NCBI RefSeq assembly: GCF_008087665.1
Contig: NZ_CP042912.1
Location: 5,332,001-5,396,000 of the forward strand
Reading direction: 5' to 3'
DNA: 64,000 nucleotides
Origin: Mariniblastus fucicola
GTDB lineage: Bacteria > Planctomycetota > Planctomycetia > Pirellulales > Pirellulaceae
The notes under the pieces are model-generated. The model ran no database searches. It was not told the origin of the DNA and was given only the letters and a program-made list of their open reading frames with translations. The position numbers were made by a program, and so were the translations under genes. Positions 18,250 through 60,417 of the stretch are shown piece by piece (position 1 is the first letter of the stretch; the number at the start of each line of letters is the position of its first letter).

Positions 18250-18320
18250 GCATCCGATTATTTGCGTGACGAGGCAAATTGTCATATGGTGAACGCCACG
18301 TTTTCGTTTTGGAGAATGCT

Positions 18321-20675: not shown

Positions 20676-20838
20676 AGGCAGTCAGCTGTATTTACAGATC
20701 CGTTTGCCCGTCTTTCGGCTTTTGGCGATTTAACGCAATTAAAACGCACGCGAAACCATCCCAATGGATGTACGTTTAACCAGACGTATGTTCGTATGCG
20801 CGAAAAGAATCCACCGACTCATTGCCGATCTGAATTTC

Positions 20839-23253: not shown

Positions 23254-23276
23254 AACAACACGACACACTTAACTTT

Positions 23277-23281
23277 AGAGG
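23277..23281 (+). promoter_or_regulatory. Ribosome binding site deciding a GTG start
   Basis: AGAGG lies 5 bases before the GTG at 23287 and supports use of this non-ATG start codon. Confidence 0.6.
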
Positions 23282-23286
23282 CCATT

Positions 23287-26019: not shown

Positions 26020-26138
26020 AATATTTGGCAGGCAAGGTGAAAGTTACGGCACAGAATTTTAACCGGTTTTTCTCGTTGGCGTTCACCGGCAACCCAATCA
26101 GCAGTCCAAGCAAATAGCGTTTTAATCCAAAATCCCTC

Positions 26139-48700: not shown

Positions 48701-51098
48701 ACACGTCATCAATCGGATCCATCGCAGACGTAAAGACTTCGCTGTATCCCGGAACCAATCCAAGTGAACCTTGTGCGATCTCATTATGAATCGTGGGCCC
48801 AAATCCGTTCGTTTCTGCGTAAACATCGGCGTCGTAGAATTCAATCGAAGTATCAGCCGAATCCGGACTTGGCAGCGCAGGATAAACAAGATCACCCTCA
48901 ATCGTCCACGAGTCGGTTCCTGCAACGTAGTCGGCGCGTAAGATATCGCCGGCCGAATCAACTGAGTAGTCGGTGCCTGAACCGTCGGGACGGTCCTGTC
49001 GATAGCCGCCCATGTCTCCAAATCGATCGCGGAAACCGAGGATCATCGATCCGTCGTTGTCGAATTCGATATCGGACAAAATCGGCATCGCGTATCCGAC
49101 TTCCGAATTGTCAGCTGTCGGGACCGCGGTTCCATCAATGTAGGTTGTGGGGAAAGTACTGAGCCACGGATTCCAGGCACCCGGCGTGTATGGAGCAAAC
49201 GTTGCGTCAATGATCGCCTGGCGTTGATAGTCCAGCCCGAACTCGAGGACTTTCTCGGGCGCCGAAGTCGGACTCGTTGGGTCGAAGCGAAAAACGTAGG
49301 CTTCCAAATCTTCATTGGTCAGCACGCCTTCAACGCCGCTGGCATCGTATTGAGCTGAATTGACGATTCCGATGTAGACCATTCCGTCGTGAAATGCCAA
49401 CCCGTTGGGGCGGGCATTCTGCAACGGATTGACACCAAGCGCGTTGGCGTCCTCATTGAGAATCGCCGTGATGATGTCGTGAGCAACGATGTTGCTGTCG
49501 CTATGCTGTGACAGATCCAATGGCGCATCGGTGCTTCCGATCGGGATCTCGTAAAGCTGATTGTCGAACAGATTCATGGCCCAAACGGTGGTGCCGTCCT
49601 CTGACAGATCGACGTCGCCAAGCCCAGACTTTCCGACCAAGTCATACGTCGCGAGGTCTGCATCCCAATCGTCGCGATAGGTCGCATCGCCAATCGTGGA
49701 CGTTGGATGAGGGTCAGCAATGTTTGGCAAAGTCGCGAACACAACGGGCGTACCGCCAGCAGTGATCGAGTAGATCGCACCTGAACCTCCCGAACCATAG
49801 CCCGAGTGCCGTTTGGTGTGAGCACCGGCAAAGAACGTATCGATTTCGTTTTGGTATGCCAGGCCTGTCACCGAACCGACTTCACCGATCGTGGCTACGA
49901 CGACATAGGGCGTGGCCGGATCGGGTGCATTGCCACGGACCTGTCCCGCGTAATCGCCTTCATTCGCGTAGTCCCAGCGGATGATCGCCGGTTCATTTCC
50001 TGTCAGTCCATCCCCAAAAAAGTAACAGGTCGCGACAATCTGCAAGTCACCTGAATCACTGATGTCACTGGGGCGATGAAGCGCCAGATTCATTACCGAA
50101 TTGGTGACTCCGGCCGTGAAGGCGACCGAAGCAACGGCGTCCGGATCAGCCGTCGCAGGATCCAGCAGACTTTCGGTAAAGCCCGTCGGCGCATTGGTGA
50201 ACTCAACACGGACCGGAATGTTTCCTACGTTGTTGATCGTGTAAGTACCATCGGCAGCCGTCGTTGTGGCATCGACAACGTTGCCGTCCGAATCGTAGGC
50301 CGTGACGGCGAGACCCGGAATCCCGACTTCCGATGCAGAGGCGGCCAGATCCTGGGAACCGTCATTGTTGTAGTCGATGTAGGCCGTTCCGCTCACCGTC
50401 GACAGGACGCCAAACCACTGGCTGTGGCGAAGCACATACTCATGGTCGATCTGTCCAGTATTGAATTCCAAATCCCAGTCACCACCAAGTTGTTCGGCTC
50501 CAGTCAAGTCATCCGAAGCCGCGACGTCAGCTCCCGTAAGCGAAGCCATCTTTTCAACAAACGATTCGCCCGCATCGGAACTGGCAAGATTACACCCGTA
50601 GATCAGCAAGTCAGCGTCTTCGGTGAGTGCATCGGCCCACTGAGCGATTTCTTCGGCCCGCGCACTCAATGCCGCACTATCAAGCGTCGACGACCCCAGT
50701 TGTATCAGACCGTCGTCGCCGTGCGACACCAGATGAACGGCCGCAAAATCGATTTCGGATTTCGAAAGTATCTCCGAGATCTGACTGACGCCGTCGGTGG
50801 CTGAATCGAGAACCCTGATTTCGAAGGAGCGATCGGGAGCGGATTCCAAGATCGAACGAATCAACTGGTCACTGCCGGCAACTGCGCCGTCCACAATCAG
50901 TAACTCAACAGGCGTCTGCTGATTTGCTTCCTGCACAAACTGCGAATCCACAGATTCTGGAAGCGCATGATCTACCAGATGTTCTGGCAGGACAAAGGTC
51001 GCGTCAGGAACACCGTCGAATAACACTCGATCTTCGAGCTGCTCGACAATGGAAATAAAATCAAGCTTGGATCGTTTGCCAATTCGTCGATTAGCCAT
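27750..51098 (-). CDS. Giant surface or secreted protein: LEPR-like motif, DUF4347, 22 GEVED + SdrD-B modules (7782 aa)
   Basis: One uninterrupted frame of 7782 residues encodes a very acidic modular protein. Order: LEPR-XLL-like QLEDRVLFDG (20-29); DUF4347 (about 62-222) with HG and GC motifs (H126, C169); an SdrD-B-like domain (about 233-330); a region of about 430 residues resembling a beta-propeller; a further SdrD-B domain; 22 GEVED modules, each followed by an SdrD-B module (GEVEDY motifs from about 1158 to 7095, mean spacing about 283 residues); three more B-type domains; a Pro-rich stretch; a six-Cys cluster (7654-7675); an acidic Glu-rich segment; and an amphipathic end. Most modules hold DxNxDGxxD-like calcium loops. 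There is no classical signal peptide. AGGA (51105-51108 complement) precedes the ATG. Probable adhesin or cell-surface stalk; the divergent operon is the likely exporter. Confidence 0.93.
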   Translation of the reverse strand: MANRRIGKRSKLDFISIVEQLEDRVLFDGVPDATFVLPEHLVDHALPESVDSQFVQEANQQTPVELLIVDGAVAGSDQLIRSILESAPDRSFEIRVLDSATDGVSQISEILSKSEIDFAAVHLVSHGDDGLIQLGSSTLDSAALSARAEEIAQWADALTEDADLLIYGCNLASSDAGESFVEKMASLTGADVAASDDLTGAEQLGGDWDLEFNTGQIDHEYVLRHSQWFGVLSTVSGTAYIDYNNDGSQDLAASASEVGIPGLAVTAYDSDGNVVDATTTAADGTYTINNVGNIPVRVEFTNAPTGFTESLLDPATADPDAVASVAFTAGVTNSVMNLALHRPSDISDSGDLQIVATCYFFGDGLTGNEPAIIRWDYANEGDYAGQVRGNAPDPATPYVVVATIGEVGSVTGLAYQNEIDTFFAGAHTKRHSGYGSGGSGAIYSITAGGTPVVFATLPNIADPHPTSTIGDATYRDDWDADLATYDLVGKSGLGDVDLSEDGTTVWAMNLFDNQLYEIPIGSTDAPLDLSQHSDSNIVAHDIITAILNEDANALGVNPLQNARPNGLAFHDGMVYIGIVNSAQYDASGVEGVLTNEDLEAYVFRFDPTSPTSAPEKVLEFGLDYQRQAIIDATFAPYTPGAWNPWLSTFPTTYIDGTAVPTADNSEVGYAMPILSDIEFDNDGSMILGFRDRFGDMGGYRQDRPDGSGTDYSVDSAGDILRADYVAGTDSWTIEGDLVYPALPSPDSADTSIEFYDADVYAETNGFGPTIHNEIAQGSLGLVPGYSEVFTSAMDPIDDVFFSGGLIFLDNSTGAESTSGGRTMGISLYTSGTAPSESFGKGNGIGDVEFLSAPGEMEIGDRIWLDTDRDGEQDAGEGNVPDGVTVELYDMTDPLNPVLVGTATTSNGQYLFNDSNVAYSDGGTAVGLRPFTDYEIRLVASDFQSGGLLQDYVATTANAVDDSIDSDAVNQGGIPIVALTTGATGESDHSFDMGLVQTDRGDLPTGYNVTAADDGATHMLDGVTFLGASADAEMDATNTANALGDDSKASDDEDGVTFLSPMVAGTNAEIQVVASVDGFLNAWIDFDGDGTLDVVDVVSVDGVPVAGGTTLNDLALTGGTHSIVVSVPVNAAGDTPARFRFTSDDPAGTLGPDGIWNNGEVEDYVLGAIGNYVWEDNGPGAATALNGVQDGTESGVAGVTVFLLDGTGSRIQDADGNDVSVTTDAAGFYQFSGLPAGDYQVEFVAPAGYLFTQANLGDDATDSDANQSTGITATTSIVAGETDDSIDAGLVRLDLGDLPDSYGTTFGSASGAASHVLDGVKFLGASVDSETDGQPSADATGDGSDEDGIEFTSPLTAGSSATLEVTASTAGFLNAWIDFDTSGTLDEVLVTHVDGVVLGTPTNIDDLALLAGTTELRFDVPATANGTMAARFRFTADAMGGTRSTNSLAPTGEVEDYVLGAIGNFVWEDNGAGGGTGYDGIQNGTEPGVGGVSVFLLDGSGNRIQDAAGNEISTTTDVNGFYQFAGLPPGGYQVEFVAPTGFSFTQQDVGNDALDSDANGSGVTGTTSIVAGEVNDSIDAGIVSFDYGDLPDGYGTTDGSAAGPARHVLDGVTYLGSSVDVDLDGQPTADATGDGADEDGVSFTSPVVAGTSATIEVTGAADGFLNAWIDFDSNGVLDEVTVTHVDGVALGTPTTISDLALTTGTTELRFDVPASATGNMAARFRYTSAAMGASRSPNNTAGSGEVEDYVLGSLGDRVFLDDNIDGLQTAGESGVSGVTVYLLDELENRLLDAAGNEISTTTDGNGDYEFAGLPAGNYRVEFEAPVGLSFTSQDVGGDDAIDSDADLATGVTSQVYAIAANTTEDSVDAGLVEQDRGDLPAGFNVSNADGGPSHTLDGATYLGASVDGELDAANTPDALGDDTGADDEDGVTFLDPMIAGTNARIEVVASADGFLNAWIDFNGNGTFDSGEQIALDRPLTTGANTITVAVPANATGVMAARFRFTSDDPFGALGPDGHWDNGEVEDYVLGAIGDYVWEDNGNGGGVPNDGIQNGTEPPVSGVTVFLLDGTGARIQDADGIDVSTTTDVNGAYEFAGLPAGNYRVQFVAPVGFEFTQANIGNDATDSDADQTTGVTATTTLTPGEVNNTVDAGLVEYDYGDLTDGYGTTNASGLGAAKHVVDDVTFLGAGVDAEADGAPTAAADGDDNDGSDDEDGVTFLSPLMPGVSAEIEVNASTAGFLNGWIDFDSDGVLDEVVVTAVNGVPLGTPANLADIALNSGANTITFDVPANADGNMAARFRFTSDQMGAMRSPNGDWSNGEVEDYVLGSLGDYVWVDNGDGGGGAKDGIQNGTESGVGGVLVTLLDASENPVTDADGNSVTTTTAADGSYRFVGLPAGDYKVHFGQPGIVLTDADQGGDDALDSDADFTTGITGQTYTISANTTETSVDAGILEVDFGDLPDGYGTTGGVDGARHAIETGVYLGSGVDNEIDGQPNASATGDDLDDTDDEDGVLFVTPLVPGRPATIEVSPNVDGYLNAWIDFDSDGTLDEVLVTHVDGVLLGTPVNIDDLNLTAGSHDLTFDVPATATGTMAARFRFSQDAMGSLRSTTGLWRNGEVEDYVLGAIGDYVWIDNGLGGGTGNDGQQNGTEPALAGVTVRLMDSAGNPIVDADGVAITTVTAADGSYEFPGLPDGDYRVQFDLPTGFQFTDTDLGDDSTDSDANESTGLTDQTYTITAGVTNATVDAGLLEQDFGDLPDSYSTLTGSGGAVHGIDGNTYLGSSVDAELDGQPSGTATGDDANTDDEDGVTFLDPMVAGTDARIEVVANSDGFLNAWVDFNGNGTFDAGEQIATDYPLTAGTNVITVSVPATATGVMGARFRFTSDNTGASLGPDGAWDNGEVEDYILGAIGDYAWEDNGAGGGVAFDGVQDGGEPAVSGATVFLLDGSGNRIQDANGNEISTTTDASGAYEFAGLPSGDYSVEFVAPGGYTFTAANVADDATDSDANELTGVTASTNLLPGEVDDTLDAGFVRLDYGDLPDGYGTTNGSTDGSARHVVDGVTYLGGGVDSETDGQPTADATGDGTDEDGVVFSGPLTAGASATINVTTSAVGFLNAWIDFDSDGVLDEVLITHVDGAALGTPVNIDDLALPGGTTELRFDVPANATGNMAARFRYTATAMGAGRSPNGTELSGEVEDYVLGSIGDQVFLDSNNDGLQTGEAGFSTVTVFLLDATGSRIQDAAGVDISTVTDVNGDYEFAGLPAGDYRVEFVAPVGYYIAKTNQGADDAIDSDADEATGITTQTYTIAANTTEDSVDAGLTNRDRGDLRSGFNVSIADGGPSHTLDASTYLGASIDGEADAANTADASGDEADEDGVTFLDPLVAGTNARVEVVANSDGFLNAWVDFNSNGTFDSGEQIVSDEPLTAGSNIITVAVPATATGAMGVRFRFTSDDPAGALGPDGHWDNGEVEDYMLGAIGDYVWEDNGILGGVPLDGEQDASEPPVAGVTVYLLDGSGNRIQDADGNDISTTTDASGRYEFAGLPAGDYQIEFAPGPEYQFTRQDAGSDDTIDSDADVTSGVTDTVSLTPGEVNETIDAGVARFDYGDLDDSYGTTDGAANPGAVHLLDGATYLGATVDSEQDGQPAVDATGDGTDEDGVVFTSPLTAGSNASFEITASVDGILNAWIDFDSDGVLDEIMITHEDGNPLPFPFPLSDWPIVAGTTEIRFNVPANATGNMAARFRFTDDLMGTTRSPNGIAIDEFGVPLAGEVEDYVLGSIGDRVFSDSNSDGLQTGEPGVENVTVYLLDGTGARIQDADGVDISTVTDANGDYEFAGLPAGDYRVEFVAPTGLLFTTANQGADDANDSDADEVTGITSQTYTIAANTTIDTVDAGLVLLDRGDLPTGFNVTSADGGPAHKLDGVTFLGASVDGEVDATNTADASGDGDDEDGVIFLNPLAAGTDAQIEVTASVDGFLNAWIDFNGNNSFDSGEQIAVDEPLVAGTNTLTISVPASATGVMAARFRFTSDSSAGALGPDGEWDNGEVEDYILGSIGDYTFSDNNLDGLQDGGDTALAGVVVNLLDGSGNPILDANGNQVTTTSDASGAYEFAGLPAGTYTVEFIEPAGLDVATANVGANDAIDSDGAISDPVFIGAGETNTTLDAGFVPEPTFTYDYGDLPDSYGTLDADGGPNHLIDGVTFLGSGVDNEADGQSNANATGDGSDEDGVEFLDPLVAGTDARIEVEASVDGYLNAWIDFNGDGMFGAGEQIATDMFLTGGLNEFTISVPPTATGLIGARFRFTADDPAGTLGTGGAATTGEVEDYLLGSIGNFVFTDVNGDGLQDAGDTPLSGVVVNLLDGAGNPVLDANSNAITTTTDAAGWYEFAGLPPGSYSVEFIEPVGLDATTANVGADDSIDSDGPVTTPVSLGAGESNTTLDAGFVTEPILTYDYGDLPDTYSTLDASGGANHQIDGVTFLGSTVDDEADGQPTADASGDIGDEDGVVFATPLVAGTDATIEVTASVDGFLNAWIDFNGNGTFEAAEQIAADFAVTAGTNTINVSVPATATGIMGARFRFTSDDPAGALGADGQWDNGEVEDYILGSIGDLTFNDNNADGLQNAGDTPLAGVVVNLLDGSGNPVLDANGNAISTTTDASGLYEFAGLSAGSYSVEFVTPVGLDITTSNVGADDMADSDGEITAPVAIGAGESNTTLDAGFVPEPAITYDYGDLPDSYETLDANNGANHLIDGVTFLGAGVDNEADGQPSVGANGDGSDENGVVFVTPLVAGADATIEVTASVDGFLNAWIDFNGDGTFDAAEQIAIDEMLTSGVNTLTVSVPATATGIMGARFRFTADDPAGTLGSGGAAASGEVEDYILGSIGDYTFNDVNGNGLQDGGDTPLAGVIVNLLDGSGNPVLDANGNAITTTTDASGAYEFAGLPPESYSVEFVEPTGLDFTSSNVGADDTIDSDGATTSVVIIGAGVSNTTLDAGFVPELYDYGDLPDSYSTLDASGGANHKIDGVTFLGSSVDNEVEGQPSANANGDGLDEDGVTFVNALVAETDADIEVVASVDGFLNAWIDFNSNGTFDAGERIATDLPVTAGTNTITVSVPATATGIMGARFRFTSDDPNGSLGPDGQWDNGEVEDYILGSIGDYTFNDNNEDGLQDAGDTPLSGVVVALLDGAGNPMLDANGNAITTTTDFNGLYEFAGLPAERYSVQFTELAGLDITTSNVGADDSIDSDGLVTAPVTIVAGETNTTLDAGFVTEPPPVYDYGDLPDSYVTLDSSIGANHLIDGVTFLGSSVDDELDGQPTADASGDGDDEDGVVFATPLVAGTDATIEITASVDGFLNAWIDFNGNGTFEGGEQIATDQALTAGLNTLTVSVPANATGVMGARFRFTADHQGGGLSYDDYVDSGEVEDYILGMIGNYTFTDVNADGLQDAGDTALAGVVVNLLDGSGNSILDANGNAISTVTDAAGMYEFAGLPAQSYSVEFVEPTGLDFTTTDVGGDESIDSDGAITAPIALGAGGINRTLDAGFVPQPNPDYDYGDLPDSYETLDASNGARHQLDGVTFLGSSVDHEADGQPSSGATGDVGDEDGVVFVTPLVAGTDATVEVTASVAGYLNAWIDFNGNGTFEGGEQIATDQALTAGVNTLTVSVPANATGVMGARFRFTADDPAGSLGSGGTASTGEVEDYILGMIGNYTFTDVNADGLQDAGDTPLAGVVVNLLDGSGNPILDANGNAISTVTDAVGMYEFAGLPAQSYSVEFVEPVGLDFTTTDVGGDESIDSDGAITAPITLGAGGINRTLDAGFVPEPAITYDYGDLPDSYETLDANNGANHLIDGVTFLGAGVDNESDGQPSSAATGDVGDEDGVVFVTPLVAGTDATIEVTASVAGYLNAWIDFNGNGTFEGGEQIATDQALTAGVNTLTVSVPTNATGVMGARFRFTADDPAGSLGSGGTASSGEVEDYILGMIGNYTFTDVNADGLQDAGDTALAGVVVNLLDGSGNPILDANGNAISTVTDAAGMYEFAGLPAQSYSVEFVEPTGLDFTTTDVGGDESIDSDGAITAPIALGAGGINRTLDAGFVPQPNPDYDYGDLPDSYETLDANNGARHQLDGVTFLGSSVDNETDGQPSSAATGDVGDEDGVVFVTPLVAGTDATIEVTASVAGYLNAWIDFNGNGTFDSGEQIASDQLLSAGVNTLTVGVPTNATGVMGARFRFTADDPAGSLGSGGTASTGEVEDYILGMIGNYTFTDVNADGLQDAGDTALAGVVVNLLDGSGNPILDANGNAISTVTDAAGMYEFAGLPAQSYSVEFVEPTGLDFTTTDVGGDESIDSDGAITAPITLGAGGINRTLDAGFVPEPAITYDYGDLPDGYGTLDANNGANHQIDGTTYLGSTVDNEADGQPTFDATGDGADEDGVVFTSPLVAGFTASVEITTSAAGFLNAWIDFDSDGVLDEVLVAHVDGTALSTPTNIDDLALAAGTTELQFDVPANATGTMAARFRYTAEAMGAARSPVGSAPTGEVEDYVLGAIGDKVFADANGDGVYNSGEATVPGVRVYLLNSLGRRMIDAENRQIFTTTDAVGCYEFAGLPPGTYHVEFQPPPGTFLSPPNQGGDDDVDSDPDPDVGVQPQIQSQTPPITVLPGVYDDSVDAGLTTRDFGDLPTGYHVAQNINGASHTLDGSTYLGATVDAEADGVNSAGAISDDNDGTDDEDGVVFLTPLTAGSTATIEVTASTVGYLNAWIDFNGDTTFDAADQIATDLLLQLGVNTITVNVPADATGVMGARFRFTSDDTAGAIGPNGHWGNGEVEDYVLNAIGDYVWQDNGDSVQSGGDVRITGIGLYLLDENGVRIQDAAGNYIYTVTDSNGRYEFAGLPDGDYRIEIGSSPYSIVDQNVGGDDASDSDLDPITGISDVVSVSGGELNDTLDVGLGLFDFGDLPSLYGETTLEDDGARHIFDSLVRLGSAVGVETTGTHSDDALFDDNDFGTDDEDGVLFLSPLVPGTAANIQVTGAGFLNAWIDFNSDGVLDEVTVTAIDGVPLATPSSISDLSIGGTHVLTIEVPADATGTMAARFRLSADAMGTARSTSGLGGRGEVEDYVLGAIGDRVFFDTGAGTTGNGLQDAGETGAPGVNVYLLDAAGNRLTDANGNDVVTVTDASGLYEFPGLPEGDYRVEFELPAGHTFTIANVGSDLAVDSNANRTTGITDAVYSIAPGETNPNVDAGLLPLASLGDRVWFDVDADGVQDADEAGLNGIDIQIEVDIDGDGTSDYTETTTTSGDGEYLFPALPPGTVTVTMVNPPAGYRGTFSADGGATDIFDGTLDPNQDRRDVDFGLTGISSLAGTVHEDGVDDADEPFFIDGVQDTGEPGIPNVTITLQGVTDSGIPFTKTTTTDSAGDYRFLDLPPGTYTIIETQPTSSPLTASSPNYVDGLDTIGSLGGAAASNSLIADQHSAILLGVDEHGTDYDFSEIPEARTDGYVFVDANDNGVFDPGERGIPEVPVTLSGVDVFGTPVLRTTTTDANGFYEFTSLYAGTYDLNEIQPTQFEDGQEQNGSVPVIVSNDNFGGLSLIWGDNTFSYNFGELDNSTTSGNPPVFRTFPPITRSSRIDPGLPGPGPIYPGIPIFSNGGVLSLDSGRPVTGGYSIENQLLDACCCEIVVDPCSVCEEPVVVDACGQELVRPTTPVEYVAPPTPIGLGEAVGEVEVPQAIEILEAESEAELEEVVELEEFVEEETETIELSADANSETDSPAARIDEAAPTVVPNLPTFLQRFTGWMRSSSD
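28074..28139 (-). other. Six-cysteine cluster near the C-terminus of the giant protein
   Basis: Residues 7654-7675 contain six Cys (ACCCE, DPCSVCEE, DACG), while the remaining 7700 residues have only about three. The cluster lies after all repeat modules and before a Glu-rich tail. It could form disulfides, bind metal or join the protein to the cell wall. Confidence 0.7.
29440..48115 (-). repeat. 22 tandem GEVED + SdrD-B modules within the giant gene
   Basis: Each module starts with YDYGDLPDSY-like sequence, continues through FLNAWIDFNGNGTFD and ends its GEVED half with GEVEDYVLG. It then has an SdrD-B half (GDYVWEDN, LLDGSGN, TTDASGxYEFAGLPAGxYxVEF, DAG). I counted 22 GEVEDY motifs. Two GEVED flavours alternate irregularly: one with NGNGTFDxGEQI and TSDDPAG, one with SDGVLDEVxVTHVDG and MGAxRS. 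The nucleotide period is about 825 bases in the most regular part. Confidence 0.92.
31940..34900 (-). repeat. Near-identical 825-bp units in an ABAB higher-order (1650-bp) arrangement
   Basis: The string AGGATGTARTCTTC recurs at 32371, 33196, 34021 and 34846, exactly 825 bases apart, and the units between are close to identical at base level. The linker before YDYGDL alternates: PEPAIT near 32000, PQPNPD near 32840, PEPAIT near 33670 and PQPNPD near 34490. Thus a two-unit block of 1650 bases was itself duplicated, a sign of recent recombination. Confidence 0.85.
50433..50915 (-). other. DUF4347 domain with caspase-like His/Cys motifs
   Basis: Residues about 62-222 of the giant protein match DUF4347, a domain found at the N-terminus of very large surface proteins. 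AAVHLVSHG (H126) and DLLIYGC (C169) fit the clan CD cysteine peptidase pattern of hydrophobic strand then HG, and hydrophobic strand then xC. Self-cleavage is possible but not shown. Confidence 0.7.
51012..51041 (-). other. LEPR-XLL-like N-terminal motif
   Basis: Residues 20-29, QLEDRVLFDG, resemble the LEPRxLLSG motif found near the N-terminus of many large planctomycete surface proteins that lack a Sec signal peptide. A basic stretch (RRIGKRSK) precedes it. It may be the export signal. Confidence 0.65.
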
Positions 51099-51244
51099 CC
51101 GATTTCCTGTGGGGCAGGCAGTATTTTAAGGGCGAGACCGGGCCGCAGATGCGCGCAGACCGGACCAAAATGCACATTGGTAGACTTCGCTTTCATCGAA
51201 ATAAACAGTGCAGCCATATGACGAAGGCACCCCAAGTTCAGTTT

Positions 51245-51286
51245 GTAACGATTATGCGGGCGGCATTGGCGTCGCATGATCGTTGC
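51245..51286. promoter_or_regulatory. Imperfect 14-bp inverted repeat in the divergent control region
   Basis: GTAACGATTATGCG at 51245-51258 and CGCATGATCGTTGC at 51273-51286 are complementary at 12 of 14 positions, with a 14-base spacer. It lies in the 283 bases between the giant gene and the export operon, 147 bases before the giant gene's start and 96 bases before the first tolC-like start. It may be an operator coordinating both, or a leader hairpin of one transcript. No other gene or clear promoter is seen in 51099-51381. Confidence 0.5.
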
Positions 51287-51381
51287 AGCCGATTTAACTG
51301 GAACAGGGATTTCCTTTTGACGATGGAACAATCGGAGCAACCCTCCAAATCGAATCCGCGGTCCTGCCCTAACAGACAACT

Positions 51382-53451
51382 ATGCCTGATCACCCAACCA
51401 TCCGCACAAAGCCTGCCCAACCGATTGAGTTGACGCAATCGATACAGCTTTACTCGCTGCAGCCCTACACCATGCCAGCAATCTTCGTTGGCTTGATTCT
51501 GTTCGTGGTGATTTTTAACGAAGCCAAACTTCGCGGACAGGATGCGTTCAAGGATTTCAACGCGACTCAGGTTTTTCGCGACATGAATGCTGAAGCTGTT
51601 GCCGCGGCGCAAAAGCCACTGGTGAATTCGTGGTGGGATCGCCACGTTCAGAACTCGCTCAGAGAAGTCCAACCGCTACCGACTGACCTGCATACGATCC
51701 TGTACCTGGCCGTTCATCACTCCAACCAAATCAAGATCGCGAAAGCAGATCCACTGATCCGGGAGACGGCGATTCAGGAAGCCGATTCGGCATTTGATTG
51801 GGTCCGCTATTTGAACACGGCGTGGAACGATACCAGTGAACCCGTCAGCAATTCGTTGACTGTCGGCGGAAACCAGAACCGTTTTAACGACACGGTTTTT
51901 CAGGGCACCGGTGGCGCAAGGAGAACAACTCGCAGTGGTGGACAACTGGACATTTCGCAACGATTCGGATGGCAAGACAACAACTCGCAGTTCTTCATCC
52001 CCAACGACCAGGCGACGGGCCGGCTGACCATGTCGTACACGCATCCGCTAATGCGAGGCCGCGGTGCTGCATACAACAATGCGATCGTGTTTCTCGCACA
52101 AGTCGACACCGAAGTTGCCAACAACGAGTTTCTTGCAACGTTGCAGGACGAATTGCTGGAGATCACGCGAGCTTACTGGAATCTGCATCTTGAACGAGCC
52201 GTTCTGGCTCATCAACTTCGGCTCTATCTTCGCACGAAGGAGATCTACCAGACGCTTTCGGCGCGGCAAACTGTCGACACGCAAGGCACGCAACTTATTC
52301 TGGCAGCAAGTGCTTTGGAAAACCGCCGAGCTGACTTGATCCGGGCACAAACGGCAGTCACCAATTCGGAGACGCGACTGCGTGGCATGATCAACGCACA
52401 GGAACTTGGAAACTCCGATCAGATGGAACTGATCCCTGTCGAGCCGTTGCCGACTTTCCAATATCACACGGATTTGCAGAACGAAATACAAATCGCGATC
52501 CAGAATCGCCCCGAAGTTCGCGCCGCGGTCCAGCAAGTCAAAGCGGGCTCACTAAGACTCGGCGTGGCTCAGCACGAATTGATGCCAGTTTTGAATCTGG
52601 TAACTCAGGGCTATCTGTCCGGACTGCAGGGCGACAGCGATTTTGGCGAAGCGTTCACGGATCAGTTTTCGGTTGGCCGCCCCAGCTACTCGGTTGGGCT
52701 GCAATACGAACTGCCGGTCGGAAACCGATTGGCGAAAGCTCGAGTCTGCCGCCGTCAACACGAATTGGAACGATTGCAAAGTGAATATGCGAGAGCTTTG
52801 CAGGCGGTGCAAACGGAAGTCGACATCGCGGTTCGTGAGCTCAACACTTCTCGCCGGGAGATTACGGCGAAGAGCCGTGCATTGGCAGCAGCCGAAGCAG
52901 AGGTGACAACGATCGAACAGCGTTGGCAGCGAATGATTGACGGAAGCGGAACTTCTTCGCTGAACCTGGAGTCGTTGTTGCGTGCTCAGGAACGAGTCAC
53001 CGCGGCGGAGCGCGAATACGTGACCGCTCGACTGACTTACAGTTTGGCGATGGTGAACATGAAGCGAGCCAACGGCACTCTGCTACAGTCAGAAGCCATC
53101 TCAGTATCACCAAGCTGTAACGGACAAGGTTGCAACGACATTGTGATCGACAAAGCCCAGTCGGTGCCGATGGAAACATTCCAGATGGTCCCTCAGGCGG
53201 GCGAGTCAATGAACATTTTCACCGGGCAGGCTCCGGCGCCTAACCTGAACGTGACACCGACTCCTGCTTCGAAACAATGGGATTCAGTCGTCGTCAATTC
53301 GGATAGCGATGAAGGTGTTCGTGTCGCAGATGGTTCTTTCAATGCTGACGCTGGACCACGTTCTCCGTGGCGCGGCTCGTCGGCAGGTTCCTCCGACACG
53401 GTCAAAACGGAGCCTGACGGTCCAGTCTTCTCCGATCTTCCCAGATACTAG
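51382..53451 (+). CDS. TolC family outer-membrane efflux protein
   Basis: This 689-residue protein (from ATG 51382) has one hydrophobic segment, FVGLILFVVIF at about 34-44, that may be a signal peptide; an in-frame ATG at 51472 (residue 31) would start right before it. The rest shows the duplicated TolC pattern: beta-rich parts (SYTHPLMRGRGAAYNN, SVGLQYELPVGNRLAKARV) alternating with long helices rich in Glu, Gln, Arg and Ala (about 240-350 and 445-570). A Ser/Pro-rich tail of about 110 residues follows. TolC proteins form outer-membrane exit ducts that dock with HlyD-type adaptors, two or three of which are encoded downstream. First gene of the five-gene operon and divergent from the giant gene. 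Confidence 0.9.
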   Translation: MPDHPTIRTKPAQPIELTQSIQLYSLQPYTMPAIFVGLILFVVIFNEAKLRGQDAFKDFNATQVFRDMNAEAVAAAQKPLVNSWWDRHVQNSLREVQPLPTDLHTILYLAVHHSNQIKIAKADPLIRETAIQEADSAFDWVRYLNTAWNDTSEPVSNSLTVGGNQNRFNDTVFQGTGGARRTTRSGGQLDISQRFGWQDNNSQFFIPNDQATGRLTMSYTHPLMRGRGAAYNNAIVFLAQVDTEVANNEFLATLQDELLEITRAYWNLHLERAVLAHQLRLYLRTKEIYQTLSARQTVDTQGTQLILAASALENRRADLIRAQTAVTNSETRLRGMINAQELGNSDQMELIPVEPLPTFQYHTDLQNEIQIAIQNRPEVRAAVQQVKAGSLRLGVAQHELMPVLNLVTQGYLSGLQGDSDFGEAFTDQFSVGRPSYSVGLQYELPVGNRLAKARVCRRQHELERLQSEYARALQAVQTEVDIAVRELNTSRREITAKSRALAAAEAEVTTIEQRWQRMIDGSGTSSLNLESLLRAQERVTAAEREYVTARLTYSLAMVNMKRANGTLLQSEAISVSPSCNGQGCNDIVIDKAQSVPMETFQMVPQAGESMNIFTGQAPAPNLNVTPTPASKQWDSVVVNSDSDEGVRVADGSFNADAGPRSPWRGSSAGSSDTVKTEPDGPVFSDLPRY

Positions 53452-53463
53452 TCGGGAGTCGTC

Positions 53464-55380
53464 ATGCCTAATTCGATCTCGGCGTCCAAAAGTCGCTCGC
53501 CATTTTCGTGGCTGCGTCGTCAGGCGTTTCGAAAACACCACTGGGTTTCGGATGTCCGCCAGGCAGAATCCAGCTTTGCGTCGCTGAGCGATGCAGCGCT
53601 GAAGCTGCAGTCCGACTCAATTCAGGAACGCTATTCCGCTTCGACCCGCGGCGAGCGCGACCGGGTTCGAGTCGAGTTCGCGGGCCTGATTGCCGAGTGC
53701 GTTTTCCGTTCGCTGGGCTTTCGTCTGTTCGACGTCCAGGTCCAGGCGATCGGCGCGGCCAGCACGGGAGCCATCATCGAAATGCAAACCGGTGAAGGAA
53801 AAACGGTCGTCACTGGCTGCATTGCGGCTTTGCGAGCGCTGGACGTTCCGTCAGTCCATGTCAGCACCACCAACAGCTACCTCGCTGACCGCGACTGTGA
53901 CGAACTGGCTCCAATTTTTGATCGGCTGGGGCTGACGCATGGCAAGCTACCGCAACAGAGCGATGAAGCAGCGTCCAGGTTGGCATATCGAAAGCAAATT
54001 GTTTATGGGCCGGGCTATCAGTTTGGATTTGATTTCCTGCACGACCAGATGAAACTGCGACAACAAAAGAAACGGCGACTTGGTCGGGAAGTCATCAATC
54101 GAATACGGGGTGCGGAGCGCGGCAACAAGCTGATCCAACCGGCCGACCATCATGTCGCGATTATCGACGAAGCCGACAGTGTGATGATTGATGAGGCGAT
54201 GACTCCTTTGATCATCAGCTTGCCTGGAAAACAGACACAGGACCCTGTGCCGTATCAGTTGGCAAAGAAGATTGCCGCCGAACTGGTAGAGGGAACCGAC
54301 TACACGATCGAGCTTCCCGAAAAATCGATCGAGGTCACCGAAAGCGCCAACCTGGCCGCGCACGAGAAGATCGCCCACCACCGCGACCTGTTGTTGGCTC
54401 GCCCCTGGAAGTCCTATATTTCCAATGCGATCCGGGCACAAATAATATTGCAGCGCGATGTGGACTATGTCGTGCTGGACGACAAAATCCAACTGGTGGA
54501 TCAGTACACCGGCAGGATTCTGCCAGACCGAACCTGGCAATCCGGTTTGCACCAAGCCGTGGAAGTCAAAGAAAACCTGACGATGCAACCGGCGCGTGAA
54601 TCAACGACCACGATCACCCGGCAGCGCTATCTGCAAATGTACGACTCAATCGCCGGACTGACCGGAACGGCACAGTCAGTCGCGGATGAGTTCAAGGACA
54701 TCTACCAATGTCCAATCGTCGTCATTCCGACAAATCGAAAATCTCAGCGACACATCGAGAGAACCCGTTTCTTCACTGATGCGGCATCGAAAGCAAAAGC
54801 GATCGCTGACGATGTTTGGCATCGGCATCAAAAAGACCAACCGATTCTGATCGGAACCAGGACCATTCGGGAAAGCCTGGAAATCGATCAGGCACTTCGA
54901 TCCCGCAACATCAACGCGGTGTTGCTGAACGGAGTTCAGGACGGCGACGAAGCCGAAATTGTGTCTCAAGCCGGCCGAGCAGGCGCCATCACGATCGCCA
55001 CCAACATGGCGGGCCGAGGCACCGACATCAAACCGGACGACCGTGCCCTTGCCGCTGGCGGACTGCACGTTGTCGCCGTTAGCCCGAACGAGTCGCCACG
55101 AATTGACCGTCAACTAATCGGACGCGGGGCGCGACAGGGCCAACCAGGATCGGCTCAATTCTTCGTCGCCGCAGACGATTCCCTGCTGACGGACTTTCAG
55201 TCGTCGCTTCCCAATCAGATCAAACGTGACGCCGGTGCTGACGGAGAATCGAGAGATTTTTCGCGTGAGCTACGGGCGTTGCAACAATCGATCGAACAAA
55301 GAAACTTCGACCGTCGACAGCAGATGATCCTCCGGGATCGTTGGATGGATTCGGTAAGAGAATCGATCGAGAAAGACTAA
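53464..55380 (+). CDS. Short SecA-like ATPase lacking the helical wing and two-helix finger
   Basis: This 638-residue protein is a SecA relative. NBD1 has Walker A MQTGEGKT (107-114) and DEAD-type IIDEADSV (D235, E236). A cross-linking-domain region follows (about 245-390). NBD2 has LIGTRTIRESL, NMAGRGTDI (GRG 517-519) and RQLIGRGARQGQPGSA. It ends soon after QRNFDRRQQMI, the start of the helical scaffold in normal SecA (about 800-950 residues). The helical wing, the two-helix finger that pushes substrate into SecY, and the zinc tail are therefore missing. It is a paralogue, not the housekeeping SecA. GGGAG at 53454-53458 marks the start, 12 bases after tolC. It probably powers or feeds export of the giant protein. 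Confidence 0.92.
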   Translation: MPNSISASKSRSPFSWLRRQAFRKHHWVSDVRQAESSFASLSDAALKLQSDSIQERYSASTRGERDRVRVEFAGLIAECVFRSLGFRLFDVQVQAIGAASTGAIIEMQTGEGKTVVTGCIAALRALDVPSVHVSTTNSYLADRDCDELAPIFDRLGLTHGKLPQQSDEAASRLAYRKQIVYGPGYQFGFDFLHDQMKLRQQKKRRLGREVINRIRGAERGNKLIQPADHHVAIIDEADSVMIDEAMTPLIISLPGKQTQDPVPYQLAKKIAAELVEGTDYTIELPEKSIEVTESANLAAHEKIAHHRDLLLARPWKSYISNAIRAQIILQRDVDYVVLDDKIQLVDQYTGRILPDRTWQSGLHQAVEVKENLTMQPARESTTTITRQRYLQMYDSIAGLTGTAQSVADEFKDIYQCPIVVIPTNRKSQRHIERTRFFTDAASKAKAIADDVWHRHQKDQPILIGTRTIRESLEIDQALRSRNINAVLLNGVQDGDEAEIVSQAGRAGAITIATNMAGRGTDIKPDDRALAAGGLHVVAVSPNESPRIDRQLIGRGARQGQPGSAQFFVAADDSLLTDFQSSLPNQIKRDAGADGESRDFSRELRALQQSIEQRNFDRRQQMILRDRWMDSVRESIEKD

Positions 55381-55411
55381 ACCGGGTTTTCAACTGAACT
55401 CAGGAAGAACC

Positions 55412-56263
55412 ATGAAACCAGTTTTCACCATCCCATTCATCATCGTTGTCGCGGCAGCCGCGTCCTGCGCCAACGCGCAGATGCACGAGGGCCGAATCAC
55501 GCGATCTTTCACCGAACCGATCGAGAAATGCGTCGCGGCGAGCGCGGAATCCGGCATCGTGGCGGGCGCACATGTTCGCGAAGGGGATCGTGTTCGCATC
55601 GGCGACGCGTTGGCTTCCATCAACCACAACGTGCTCAAAGAGTCGTTGGCAATTGCTGTCGCCAAAGCGGAATCGACGGCACGCCTGGACGCTGCGAAAT
55701 CGCAACTGAGTCTCATCGAGTCACAGCTCGACGCGGTCACGTCGCTCGTTTCGGGTGGACACACGAACAAATACGAAGTGCAGCAAAAGACAGCCGAACA
55801 GCAGCAGGCCGTTGCGGAACTTCGTGCGGCCGAGGACGAGTTGAATCTGGCGGCACTGGAAGTCAATCGTATCAAGGCACAAATCGAAGACCGGATCATC
55901 AAAAGCCCGATCAATGGTTTCGTGACCGAGATCCACAAGCAACCTGGCGAAAACGTTTCTCACAACGAACCGCAGTTTGCCACGATCGTTCGCGTCGACC
56001 AACTCAAAGTTCGCTTTTACCTCGATGCGGCGACTCTCAGGAATTCCAAAGTAGGCGATCGGGTGCCGTTGGAAGTGGGAACCAACGGAAAATCGACACA
56101 AGGCATCATCAGCTTTGTCTCGCCCGTCATCGACCCGGACAGCGGACTGGGGCGGTTGGACGTAGTCCTGGAAAACAGCGATCTTTCTATCCAAAGCGGC
56201 ATCGCATGCTACTGGAAATCCGAAACCGCGTCGGTCGCTGACCGTTCCGCAAAACTTCGATAG
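55412..56263 (+). CDS. Periplasmic HlyD/RND-type adaptor protein
   Basis: This 283-residue protein has a signal peptide (about 1-23, ending ANAQ). It has the membrane-fusion-protein order: a first lipoyl-like half (ESGIVAGAHVREGDRVRIGDALASI), a coiled-coil hairpin (about 75-160, rich in Ala, Glu and Gln), a second half (IIKSPINGFVTEIHKQPGENVS) and a beta-barrel (about 195-265). There is no membrane anchor, so it should be soluble in the periplasm and bridge inner-membrane components to TolC. AGGAAG at 55402-55407 precedes the ATG; 31 bases separate it from the SecA-like gene. It is shorter than most HlyD proteins. Confidence 0.9.
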   Translation: MKPVFTIPFIIVVAAAASCANAQMHEGRITRSFTEPIEKCVAASAESGIVAGAHVREGDRVRIGDALASINHNVLKESLAIAVAKAESTARLDAAKSQLSLIESQLDAVTSLVSGGHTNKYEVQQKTAEQQQAVAELRAAEDELNLAALEVNRIKAQIEDRIIKSPINGFVTEIHKQPGENVSHNEPQFATIVRVDQLKVRFYLDAATLRNSKVGDRVPLEVGTNGKSTQGIISFVSPVIDPDSGLGRLDVVLENSDLSIQSGIACYWKSETASVADRSAKLR

Positions 56264-56284
56264 CCCTCCAACGAACGCGAATCC

Positions 56285-58183
56285 ATGACAACATTCCCTA
56301 CCGACAATTCGACTTCGCATTCGACGCAAGTTCCGCTGCACAAAAAGTTCAGCCGGCAGGTTTCGAAGTCAAAGCATAAGCAGAAACCTCAACCTAACCT
56401 GGAACAACAGGCTCTGGCGATCATCTCTGCCGGAACCAGCGAGTTTCAGGTTCTGTCAGGCCTATTGCAGTTGGCGATCGGATCTGTGGGAGGCATCGGC
56501 GGCTTCGTCGCGGCGCAATCTCAGGAACATTGGTACCTCTCCAAACAGAAACCAACCATCGGGAAGATTCCATCGGCTTCGTTTTTCGATGAGGGATTTT
56601 CTCAGCAGTGTGAGACGTTTTTGCGCTCGGGAGAAATCCAGACGTGGGCTTGCGAGACGCTCGAAGGCGTCCTGATGTTTTCGATTCCCCTGAATCGGGA
56701 CGAAGATGCTGCGGAGCTGATGCTGATTCTGTCAACAACGGAAGCTTCAATCGTCGAGTCAACCCAGCGGCTGACTCGAATCGCTTCGGCCATGCGATTG
56801 TGGATTAACGCGAATGCAGCCCAGGATGCGAACTGGCAAGTCCACTCGTTGGCTTCGATCATCGCCATGGTTTCGCAAATCGAAACACGAGAAACGCTAA
56901 ATCTGGCGGCTGAGGAAACTGCGAACCTGATGGCGAATCACCTACCGGTCGCCAGCGCGGCGATTGGTATGCTGGACAGGCACCTGATGACCTTGAAGGC
57001 TATTTCCGGCGTCAGCAAGATGGATCCGGGATCGGAAATCAGCCGAAGCTGGCTGCAGGCGATGGTGGAAAGTCAGACTCGAAAACAACCGGGGTTGTTT
57101 CCTGCTGTGGATCAGGAGAACAATTTTCTGCTTCAGTCGCACCGTCGACTGGCTTCGAACTTGCAAGCAGAAGCGGCATTCAGCCAACCGCTGGTCGCGG
57201 AAGACGGAGAGGAAATCGGCTCGATCGTTTTCGTCGGCGAGCAAAGTCAGCTGCAGTCGGAATCGTTTCAACGATTTGTCGCCACGTCGGCGCCCGCGCT
57301 CGCAGCAGCACTCCGTTCAGCCAAACAGCGACAAAAAGGAAAGCTCTCGCGAGCCAAATCGTGGGTGCTGGAGAAAATGCACTCGATGCCCGGCGCTATC
57401 GCCTTGGCTGCCGTGTTCGGTTTTGTGCTGCTGATGATGCTGCCGGTCACGTATCGAGTTCGCTGCTCTGCGATTACCGAACCGGTGTCGCGTCGCTTCG
57501 CAGTGGCTCCTTTTGCTGGCCAAATTATCGAAGGCCATGTCGAAGCAGGGGACTTTGTCACCAAGGGCCAACTGCTCGCAGAGCTGGACGGTCGCTCGAT
57601 CCGCTGGGAGCTGTTTGGTGTTTCGGCCGAGCGTGAACAGTCAATCACGTCACGGCAGATGGAGTTGTCCGAGCGTAACATCGCCAAGGTAAAGCTTGCC
57701 GAACTGGAGCATGACCGGTTGCAATCGAAAGAAGAAGTCTTGAAGTACAAGCAGGAACATTTGCAGGTTTGTAGTCCGATCGACGGAATCGTCCTGAGCG
57801 GTTCACTGGAACGTGCCGAAGCCGCTTCGGTCGAGACTGGCCAGACGCTTTTCGAAATCGGCCCGATGAAGCCAATGCGAATCGAAATCGAAATTCCGGC
57901 GAACGAAGTGGCTCAAACGAAGCCCGGATTTCCGGTCAGCATCTGGATCAATGGGCAGGAAAATGAAGTCATCGAAGGCAGCATTCTCAAGATTCACCCA
58001 AGAAGCACGACTCGAAACGCCAAAAACGTTTTCGTTGCCGAAGTGGAGTTTCCCAACGAGGACGAACGGCTTCGGCCAGGCATGAAAGGGACCGTTCGCA
58101 TCGATTGTGAGAAACGCAGTCTCGGGTGGTCGTTGTTTCACAAACCAATCAACTGGCTAAAAGCAAACTTCTCCTATTTTTAG
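56285..58183 (+). CDS. GAF domain - transmembrane - HlyD-like adaptor
   Basis: This 632-residue protein joins a cytoplasmic N-terminal part to a periplasmic adaptor. Residues about 40-350 contain GAF-like sensor sequence (EETANLMANHLPVASAAIG... GEEIGSIVFVGE). One membrane helix lies at about 370-390 (ALAAVFGFVLLMMLP). Then come lipoyl-like halves (GQIIEGHVEAGDFVTKGQLLAEL and VCSPIDGIVLSGSLE) around a coiled coil, and a barrel with EIEIPANEVAQTKPGFPV. The topology would let a cytoplasmic signal, or the ATPase, act on the export duct. It starts 21 bases after the previous gene. The GAF ligand is unknown. Most export adaptors have no such sensor domain. Confidence 0.87.
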   Translation: MTTFPTDNSTSHSTQVPLHKKFSRQVSKSKHKQKPQPNLEQQALAIISAGTSEFQVLSGLLQLAIGSVGGIGGFVAAQSQEHWYLSKQKPTIGKIPSASFFDEGFSQQCETFLRSGEIQTWACETLEGVLMFSIPLNRDEDAAELMLILSTTEASIVESTQRLTRIASAMRLWINANAAQDANWQVHSLASIIAMVSQIETRETLNLAAEETANLMANHLPVASAAIGMLDRHLMTLKAISGVSKMDPGSEISRSWLQAMVESQTRKQPGLFPAVDQENNFLLQSHRRLASNLQAEAAFSQPLVAEDGEEIGSIVFVGEQSQLQSESFQRFVATSAPALAAALRSAKQRQKGKLSRAKSWVLEKMHSMPGAIALAAVFGFVLLMMLPVTYRVRCSAITEPVSRRFAVAPFAGQIIEGHVEAGDFVTKGQLLAELDGRSIRWELFGVSAEREQSITSRQMELSERNIAKVKLAELEHDRLQSKEEVLKYKQEHLQVCSPIDGIVLSGSLERAEAASVETGQTLFEIGPMKPMRIEIEIPANEVAQTKPGFPVSIWINGQENEVIEGSILKIHPRSTTRNAKNVFVAEVEFPNEDERLRPGMKGTVRIDCEKRSLGWSLFHKPINWLKANFSYF

Positions 58184-58236
58184 ATCGCCTCTACCAAGTT
58201 AGACGAAGGTCATTCCAACAAACCAACGAATCAAAC

Positions 58237-60417
58237 ATGCTTCAAGATTCCACACTCGAATTCGGTCAGGCACGACTCAAACTGAAAGAGTCGCTGCGTT
58301 TTGACATGCGCCAGTCCGGCAACAGCGTGTCATGGATCTGCGAAGATGAAGTCACCGGAAGATTCTTTCAACTCGGATTGCCACAATATACTTTTCTTAC
58401 AATGCTCGACGGACAGCGTACCGTCAGCACGGCTTTGATGAAAACGGCGACGCTGCTGCGAGAGCATGCGATCGAGGAATCAGAGGCGGCGAACGTTTGC
58501 AAATGGGCGATCGAATCGGGATTGGTCGAAACCGAATCCGGCAACTCAGCCGCGCGACGAAAAGAACAGCATCAACAGATTCAGAAACAGCAACTTGTTT
58601 CGTGGCTGAATCCGATGATGATTCGTATTCCGCTGTTCGATCCCGATCAAATGATCGAAAAAGCTGCCAAACTCTTCGGCTTTCTCGTCAGCCCAATGGG
58701 TTTTCTGTTGTGGCTGGTCGTGGTGATCGCCGGCTTTTTTCAACTGTTGATGAACTGGGATCAGTTCTTCGTCAATCGCGTCAGCTCGTTCTCGGCCAGC
58801 GACCTGCTGTGGATCGCGTTGACGTCGTTGGTGCTCAAACTGATTCACGAAGTCGCTCATGGAGTCGTCTGTAAGAAGTTCGGTGGACGAGTCAAATCGT
58901 GCGGGATTCTTGTTCTTCTGTTGATTCCAATGCCTTTCGTCGACGTCACCAGTTCGTGGCGTTTTCCGAGCAAGTGGCAGCGGATTTTGACTTCAGCCGC
59001 GGGAATGATCAGCGAAATTTTCATCGCGGCGATCGCCTGTCTGGTTTGGGCTTCCAGTTCGCCTGGACCGCTGCAGTACCATGCAGGCAACGTCATCATT
59101 ACGGCGACGCTGTTGACGCTGCTGTTCAACGTCAATCCGCTGATGCGATTCGACGGTTACTACATGTTGTCCGACTGGTTGGAGATTCCGAATCTGTCAA
59201 CGCACGGACGCCAATGGCTCAAAGGCGCCTTCAAGCGGTTGTTCTTCGGCAGCCAAAAACCGACGGTCAAGGAGACTGGGTTCCGGGGATTCTTCGTGAA
59301 AACTTACGGAGTACTGGCCATGATGTGGTTCTTCTCCATCGCTGTTGGGCTTTCACTCGGGGCGTCGAGTTTGTTGGAAGGATTCGGGTTAATCATCGCG
59401 ATCATCGGACTGCTGCTCTGGATCGGAGTCCCGGTTTGGAAGCTTGCCAAATACGTGATTCACGGCACGGAAACGGAAAATCCGAATCGCGTCTGGTTCG
59501 CGACAGCTTCTGCAATCACGGCCGCATGTCTGGTCGGTTTTTTGATGCTCTGTCCGGCGCCGTCGGTTGTGTCGGCACCGATTGTTATCGACTACGATCC
59601 GCTGACTGTGGTGCGAGCGAAGGCATCCGGTTTTGCGAACACGATCCACGTCACTGACGGTCAATGGGTTGAAGCAGGTGACTTGTTGATGACACTCGAG
59701 AATCCGGAGCTACAGCTGGATTTGACATCGCTTCTGATCGACCTTCGCATCTCCACGATCCGTGCACAAGCTTTGCTGACCCGAGAACAGCTCGGGGAGC
59801 TGAAGTTGGAAAATGAAGCCATCGAGTCGATGCATAAACGTCGCCGAGAACTGGAAGAGCAGATCGCGAACCTCAACGTGGTGGCAACGCAGAGCGGCAC
59901 AGTTCTGGCAGCGGACTTGCACGCGGACACGGGAAAGTACTTTCGTCCCGGTGACGAAATCCTCTCAATTGGCAACGATGAAAAAATTCACGCGATTGCA
60001 CTTACGCGGCAGCAGGACATCGAATGGATTGAACAGCGCGATGCTGTCGAAGTGGAACTCCGCATTTGGGGACGCAGTGAAGATGAACTGATCGCCGGAC
60101 AGATCAAACATGTTCACCCTCGGGCTCGGGACGATTTGCCTCACGAAGCTTTCGCCGCAACGGCGGGTGGTCCGCTGGCCGTGGTGCCGAGGGAACAGGT
60201 GGAAGATTCGTCCGAATCCAACAACGGCGAGATGAAGCTGACCGAACCTCGCGTGCCGCTGGAGATTGAATTGGCGCGTTCAGATCGCCAAACGCTACTT
60301 CCTGGGCAGGCGGGGCAGATTTTGGTTCGTGCCCGAGAACAAAACATGGGAACCTATCTGGCCCAGAACTTTGTCCGTTTTGTGAAGCGTAACAACTTGC
60401 GAACTCACGGGCTGTAG
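58237..60417 (+). CDS. PqqD-like domain - M50 (site-2) protease - HlyD-like adaptor fusion
   Basis: This 726-residue protein starts with a PqqD-like winged-helix domain (about 15-100; FFQLGLPQYTFLTMLDGQRTV), a fold that binds peptide leaders in other systems. An M50 membrane metalloprotease follows, with zinc motif HEVAH (204-208) and the third ligand in NPLMRFDG (300-307, D306), on several membrane helices (about 150-172, 188-205, 222-236, 255-275, 285-300, 370-440, 460-480). The C-terminal part is a HlyD-type adaptor with two lipoyl-like halves around a coiled coil (about 540-610). All catalytic ligands are present. It is the last gene of the operon and ends 3 bases from the glnE stop. It is likely the inner-membrane channel or leader-processing unit for the giant protein. 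Confidence 0.9.
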   Translation: MLQDSTLEFGQARLKLKESLRFDMRQSGNSVSWICEDEVTGRFFQLGLPQYTFLTMLDGQRTVSTALMKTATLLREHAIEESEAANVCKWAIESGLVETESGNSAARRKEQHQQIQKQQLVSWLNPMMIRIPLFDPDQMIEKAAKLFGFLVSPMGFLLWLVVVIAGFFQLLMNWDQFFVNRVSSFSASDLLWIALTSLVLKLIHEVAHGVVCKKFGGRVKSCGILVLLLIPMPFVDVTSSWRFPSKWQRILTSAAGMISEIFIAAIACLVWASSSPGPLQYHAGNVIITATLLTLLFNVNPLMRFDGYYMLSDWLEIPNLSTHGRQWLKGAFKRLFFGSQKPTVKETGFRGFFVKTYGVLAMMWFFSIAVGLSLGASSLLEGFGLIIAIIGLLLWIGVPVWKLAKYVIHGTETENPNRVWFATASAITAACLVGFLMLCPAPSVVSAPIVIDYDPLTVVRAKASGFANTIHVTDGQWVEAGDLLMTLENPELQLDLTSLLIDLRISTIRAQALLTREQLGELKLENEAIESMHKRRRELEEQIANLNVVATQSGTVLAADLHADTGKYFRPGDEILSIGNDEKIHAIALTRQQDIEWIEQRDAVEVELRIWGRSEDELIAGQIKHVHPRARDDLPHEAFAATAGGPLAVVPREQVEDSSESNNGEMKLTEPRVPLEIELARSDRQTLLPGQAGQILVRAREQNMGTYLAQNFVRFVKRNNLRTHGL

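Follow-up and report, generated by a model that had tools for sequence, protein, structure and literature searches.

A SecA-, M50- and HlyD-containing operon without an ABC transporter gene in Mariniblastus fucicola, a probable exporter of giant proteins with LEPR-XLL-type leaders

The stretch analysed here (hereafter the window) comprises 64,000 nucleotides of Mariniblastus fucicola (NZ_CP042912.1, host genome of 6.57 Mb) and harbours a candidate export operon next to a divergent giant open reading frame (ORF). The five operon ORFs, all on the + strand, were found at 51382-60417 with intergenic gaps of 12, 31, 21 and 53 bases, in agreement with the initial annotation, which was drawn up from the sequence alone. 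The features of the locus are as follows.

27750..51098, - strand: giant cargo candidate of 7782 residues with DUF4347, SdrD-B/GEVED repeats and an acidic tail (ORF list, Pfam)
50421..50903, - strand: DUF4347 of the giant, residues 66-226 (Pfam PF14252)
51009..51050, - strand: LEPR-XLL-like leader core of the giant, residues 17-30, around LEDRVLFDG (NF012209, 13.8 bits)
51051..51098, - strand: basic N-terminal stretch of the giant, residues 1-16, no hydrophobic core
51099..51381, no strand: intergenic region of 283 bp between the divergent giant and the operon (ORF list)
51382..53451, + strand: gene 1, TolC-type outer-membrane factor of 689 residues (Pfam OEP/TolC)
53464..55380, + strand: gene 2, short SecA-like ATPase of 638 residues (Pfam SecA_DEAD, SecA_PP_bind, P-loop_SecA)
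55412..56263, + strand: gene 3, HlyD-type periplasmic adaptor of 283 residues with an N-terminal hydrophobic segment (Pfam HlyD_3/HlyD_D23)
56285..58183, + strand: gene 4, HlyD-type adaptor whose N-terminal part is long, with one hydrophobic segment (Pfam)
57509..58084, + strand: C-terminal HlyD_D23 region of gene 4, residues 409-600 (Pfam)
58237..60417, + strand: gene 5, fusion of PqqD-like, M50 and HlyD parts, 726 residues, ATG start (Pfam, profiles)
58276..58536, + strand: PqqD-like N-terminal domain of gene 5, about residues 14-100 (profile positions)
58828..59334, + strand: M50 region of gene 5, residues 198-366, with HExxH at residues 204-208 and Asp306 of FDGY
59578..60126, + strand: HlyD-type periplasmic region of gene 5, residues 448-630 (Pfam, fold search)

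The TolC-type factor, the SecA-like protein and the M50 fusion announced by the initial annotation were borne out; its two HlyD adaptors were too few, since HlyD-type modules occurred in genes 3, 4 and 5. Peptidase_M50 was only just recognised by Pfam in gene 5 (27.6 bits, cut-off 27.2), and the HExxH motif and the distal Asp were invariant in 19/19 and 47/47 proteins, the window's own protein being included in the test. The longest ORF of gene 5 begins at GTG 58126 and overlaps gene 4. Pfam did not call PqqD in the window's own gene 5; it did so in 7 of 19 relatives, and a profile of 47 proteins with that of the window first matched PqqD (3g2b_A, E 2.3e-5). The HlyD part dominated the fold search with gene 5, which hardly covered the membrane part. 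Likewise, GAF was not detected by Pfam in the window's gene 4 and was present in 7 of the 13 gene-4 family members scanned. No ABC (ATP-binding cassette) transporter was found by Pfam among the five genes.

The alignment of gene 2 with a solved SecA chain of 778 residues was confined to residues 14-611 of the latter, and the C-terminal part of full-length SecA is absent from it; the portion behind residue 611 presumably corresponds to the wing and the two-helix finger. SecA_SW was not found by Pfam in gene 2. The preprotein cross-linking domain is retained, and the nucleotide motifs were invariant in 12/12 SecA-like proteins. Assignment to the SecA2 accessory system was rejected since gene 2 scored far below the curated cut-offs of the SecA2 models (TIGR03714, 385.9 bits against 930; TIGR04221, 380.5 against 725; TIGR04397, 455.3 against 1085; NF012136, 362.9 against 1100).

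The giant indeed lacks an ordinary Sec signal, as initially annotated: no strongly hydrophobic stretch was found at its N-terminus, where the best 19-residue hydropathy mean was 0.74 over the first 60 windows. Its DUF4347 scored 168.9 bits (gathering score 24.6) in a Pfam scan that covered the first 800 and the last 999 residues, in which the SdrD-B/GEVED repeats were also seen. Five ORFs of this genome carry DUF4347 in all. His126 of this domain was conserved in 15/15 sequences and Cys169 in 14/15, and its model bears some resemblance to caspase-like folds, which may point to a proteolytic role. Only 18 lysines occur among the 7782 residues. The protein has only nine cysteines, six of which cluster near the C-terminus (residues 7654-7675), before the acidic tail.

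A leader was recognised from 40 cargo N-termini as a block of about 13 residues, (F/L/V/M)-E-x-L-E-P-R-x-L-L-S-A-D, following a basic stretch. Glu at -2 was conserved in 38, Ser at +7 in 35 and Asp at +9 in 32 of them; relative entropy was mostly 2-3.8 bits within the block and mostly at most 1 outside it, and Lys plus Arg amounted to 21% before and 2% after it. This set leaves out L158 (no pattern match, one of 20) as well as L128 and L140 (two of the 22 'outside' loci). Since only 2/40 N-termini contained 15 consecutive residues with a mean hydropathy over 1.8, ordinary Sec signals are lacking in these cargos. The pattern also appeared, independently of any profile, in the first 150 residues of 22 out of 23 cargos that had been chosen solely for adjacency or DUF4347; the 23rd, from Alisedimentitalea, showed LEPRLLLAA ahead of its annotated start, where the frame is still open. 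The control consisted of 763 further ORFs, 300 residues or longer, from the same loci: 26 carried the pattern, of which 23 were cargos beside M50 identified by other means (those of Burkholderia and Azospirillum recurring among them, with other ends). The remaining three were the leader-like proteins of L035 and L037 and an ORF of L038 beside M50. In the window, NF012209 was the only NCBIfam match in the first 80 residues of the giant, and the second giant of this genome carries the leader LEERVLF. Cargos with different downstream domains share the leader, which strengthens the hypothesis that it is recognised and cut by the PqqD and M50 parts.

The organization of the locus is repeated elsewhere. 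Its own genome contains a second operon of the same order, whose M50 protein is 63% identical and which likewise diverges from a giant with DUF4347. M50 and short-SecA genes of a more distant class, in the same genome (L035 and L037), also adjoin leader-like proteins, M50 and HlyD lying beside a 1959-residue LEPRQLL protein and the short SecA behind an 817-residue LEARNLL protein. Among relatives, the first-listed close M50 gene was examined in 22 genomes, in seven of which it lay too near a contig end to tell; a DUF4347 ORF stood beside the operon, on the same contig, in 12 of the 15 informative ones. Other regions from relatives were mostly picked for a DUF4347 match on the contig and therefore serve gene order, not rates.

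A genome scan with an M50 alignment, from which the best 80 of 568 relatives were kept as loci, widened this picture, many loci being cut by contig ends. The SecA-like protein was found by six-frame profile search in 70 of these best 80, the second HlyD protein in 77, HlyD in 57, TolC in 13, DUF3467 in 19 and DUF4347 in 14. In L051 and L053-L056 the cargo and the HlyD genes are separated by a small DUF3467 gene. An ABC motif pattern occurred in 5/80 loci, none within 4.5 kb of M50. A normal type I label was thus rejected, as the initial annotation had it, there being no ABC gene in the operon and none by motif at most 4.5 kb from M50 in the 80 loci, with no search for an ABC protein encoded elsewhere. 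The co-occurrence check that the initial annotation proposed revealed a conserved neighbourhood of the SecA subfamily, PqqD-M50-HlyD and LEPR-XLL or DUF4347 proteins, spanning Planctomycetes, Alpha-, Beta-, Gamma- and Deltaproteobacteria and one Nitrospiraceae bacterium.

Contiguity of the leader ORF with M50 was established for 43 of 79 loci (L073 being left out), 21 of them inside the retrieved sequence and 22 through an exactly matching stop coordinate; in 20 of these 22 the contig was equally long in both retrievals. Two of the 43 leader matches were below the family cut-off. A count of 61/79 by coordinates only was discarded because different contigs can share coordinates. Six loci outside the 43 appeared positive, L095, L112 and L138 by coordinates only (the L138 match would have to cross the point where a plasmid record begins) and L125, L139 and L144 by leader pattern together with DUF4347. 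At the genome level, LEPR-8K was above cut-off in 66 of the 76 distinct M50 genomes representing the 79 loci (35/39 and 33/39, two genomes being in both sets) versus 1 of 14 controls. Leader-bearing open frames reached 14,414 residues. The linkage between cassette and leader, like the leader itself, is well supported.

Plasmid-borne cassettes beside giants were recorded with SecA in Methylosinus, Alisedimentitalea, Pseudosulfitobacter, Mesorhizobium and Pontibrevibacter, and without it in Thalassospira, Burkholderia anthina, Azospirillum brasilense and E. coli; the NCBI annotation names the Pontibrevibacter and Thalassospira giants LEPR-XLL proteins. A plasmid search with the SecA-like protein gave many ordinary SecA records and was not used for counts. 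The E. coli plasmids (L059, L170) combine a SecA-less cassette with a DUF4347 giant, and 24 complete E. coli genomes out of 5426 matched this cassette, four places being chromosomal.

These plasmid copies would suit an arrangement without function, in which cassette and giants are merely carried along together on islands and plasmids and the substrate of the operon would be small molecules or a modified peptide. Gene 5 also shows similarity to NF041824, the daptide metalloprotease family, scoring 170.4 bits against a cut-off of 300. Yet the cargo lies upstream, downstream or divergent according to lineage while the leader persists, and a small precursor gene could not be accommodated in this operon, whose gaps measure only 12-53 bases. 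Co-occurrence also speaks against mere co-travelling: an even sample was composed of 229 genomes from the class of Seongchinamella, which we take to be Gammaproteobacteria, 31 with M50 at E <= 1e-30 and 198 without. LEPR-8K was present in 17 of the 31 and in 3 of the 198 (Fisher 1.2e-14), and LEPR-8K or DUF4347 in 22 and 10, respectively (3e-16), both p-values overstating the association for reasons given below. A cargo was located at most 6 kb from M50 on the same contig in 10 of the 31 M50 genomes. We consider a neighbourhood without function highly improbable.

Our results rather make it probable that the operon encodes a type I-like export machine devoid of an ABC transporter and serving proteins with an N-terminal LEPR-XLL-type leader, mostly giant and surface-type. 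The divergent 7782-residue protein is the likely cargo here, and the further leader-bearing giants of the same genome are probably cargo too. We hypothesize that the PqqD-like domain of gene 5 would bind the leader at the inner membrane and that the M50 domain, with its conserved catalytic residues, would cut or gate it. The SecA-like ATPase, where present, would feed the unfolded chain, full-length SecA or another energy source taking this part elsewhere; HlyD modules from genes 3, 4 and 5 would build the passage through the periplasm, with TolC as the exit. In one cargo group DUF4347 stands right behind the leader and may process the cargo after export.

The same components could in principle control processing or release of the giant instead of its export, with a purpose comparable to the control of LapA by LapG/LapD. 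M50, and perhaps DUF4347 by its fold, look like proteases, and the GAF domain of some gene-4 family members (7/13) would agree with such a role. It is nevertheless very unlikely, given that three HlyD modules, TolC at this locus and an ATPase in 70/80 loci fit transport, and that the surroundings of the cargo revealed no further exporter (the sparse ABC motifs mentioned above all lying more than 4.5 kb from M50).

Several points weigh against export by this cassette. Co-location does not prove transport. The 80 loci, as the best-scoring of 568, lean to relatives of a Methylosinus protein, and 36/79 were not shown contiguous by the contiguity test. All 40 N-termini had been retrieved through the LEPR-8K profile (24 positions) and placed by a pattern, so that their conservation is partly due to selection; the leader of the window itself (residues 17-29) reached only 13.8 bits with LEPR-8K NF012209, below the cut-off of 17. 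The p-values of the even sample overstate the association because its centre genome was chosen for having M50, at most four candidates were scored per genome and related genomes are not independent; moreover, 3 of its 198 M50-less genomes carry LEPR-8K and 7 carry DUF4347. Three of the 15 informative relatives (G016, G004 and G012) have no DUF4347 ORF beside the operon. Inspection of the operon surroundings in G004 and G012 showed no cargo. In G016, whose M50 is the most similar (79%), the giant is absent; the two photolyase genes that adjoin it in the window are retained there and sit beside TolC. Directly behind M50 of G016 lies a 702-residue trypsin-like ORF (L038 450-2558, - strand) with a basic stretch and LEDRKLMAA near its start, from which cargos may include ordinary-sized enzymes. 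Finally, the SecA-like protein was missing from 10/80 loci in the six-frame search.

Of the SecA-less loci, eight carried a cargo with DUF4347, and the remaining L067 and L126 stopped at contig edges. Among the genomes of these eight, six contained only full-length SecA (frames of 881-942 residues) and two a short SecA elsewhere; seven are metagenome assemblies, Cellvibrio mixtus (L131) not being one. Likewise, three members of the window's genus (L048-L050) displayed the operon beside a giant without a SecA gene and with nothing in its place. The SecA-like protein is therefore optional in the cassette, and since SecA-less cassettes occur in genomes without short SecA, it cannot be a general motor unless full-length SecA substitutes for it. 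The initial annotation thus gained support for its core idea of dedicated export and only partial support for its SecA-like motor, which does not hold up as a general rule. Short SecA frames, some fragmentary, were recorded in 39 of 40 planctomycete genomes, G034 being the exception.

SecA-less cassettes in genomes with full-length SecA only (6/8) and on E. coli replicons bear on a two-step route, by which cargos would reach the periplasm through the Sec channel with SecA or the SecA-like protein, HlyD, TolC and M50 serving only for outer-membrane passage or trimming. The preprotein cross-linking domain retained by the SecA-like protein agrees with this route. However, 2/40 hydrophobic cargo N-termini are few for ordinary Sec signals, and a protein aligned to SecA residues 14-611 of 778 is devoid of the SecA C-terminal part. 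We regard the two-step route as unlikely, though less so than the two alternatives considered above, and retain export by the cassette as a whole.

The gene cluster itself is already known; its cargo link, the leader and the SecA-less form are added here. Secondary SecA_DEAD and type I-related loci were described by Kamneva, Poudel and Ward in 2015 (PMC4452313) in Planctomycetes, Verrucomicrobia, Proteobacteria, Nitrospirae and Chlorobi, with SecA proposed as ATPase and M50 as membrane part and the broader role called completely unknown. Like the locus of the window, theirs includes a short SecA without SecA_SW, M50-HlyD and HlyD/biotin_lipoyl proteins, sometimes OEP, and no ABC transporter; it further features GAF-HlyD. 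Genes META1p2399-2402 of Methylobacterium extorquens AM1 are named there as one such locus. The excerpts of that article considered here name no cargo, leader, PqqD domain or SecA-less version. No paper linking the cassette to giant cargos was found in the open-licence literature, preprints being outside its scope; PMC9430717, from its excerpt, concerns an ordinary HlyB type I locus. An altered co-culture fitness is given for a Ruegeria pomeroyi secA2 (SPO2713) mutant in Table 3 of PMC10041152; this gene may be a candidate for such a cassette.

Compared with type I secretion (HlyB-HlyD-TolC), the cassette shares HlyD adaptors, a TolC duct and giant repetitive cargos, but differs by the absence of ABC from the operon, a shared N-terminal signal and the membrane protease fusion. 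Accessory Sec systems with SecA2 similarly place a second SecA-type ATPase beside large surface-type proteins; in contrast, the protein described here lacks the C-terminal part, is coupled to HlyD/TolC and scores far lower. LEPR-8K or LEPR-XLL (NF012209) is likewise an N-terminal leader of very long proteins, from which the window copy, LEDRVLF, departs by falling below the cut-off. A function in anti-phage defence was rejected, three proteins giving no PADLOC match.

Next to these features, Pfam recognised glnE as the gene following the operon, on the opposite strand. Two photolyase-type genes (photolyase and DPRP) adjoin the giant at 24607-27635, and planctomycete-type DUF1559, PSD/PSCyt and DUF1552 genes lie in a row at 18279-24576.

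Whether the cassettes amount to a widespread separate secretion type, in which a leader-reading PqqD-protease-adaptor would replace the ABC protein, HlyD/TolC would provide the exit, the SecA-type motor would be interchangeable and caspase-like processing of the cargo would occur outside, appears to us an evenly balanced question. It bears on the export of proteins thousands of residues long without an ordinary Sec signal or an adjoining ABC transporter. A defined leader together with a defined cassette makes the export idea directly testable; if true, it would provide a cargo for the gene cluster of 2015, a function for the NCBI LEPR-XLL domain and a setting for DUF4347.

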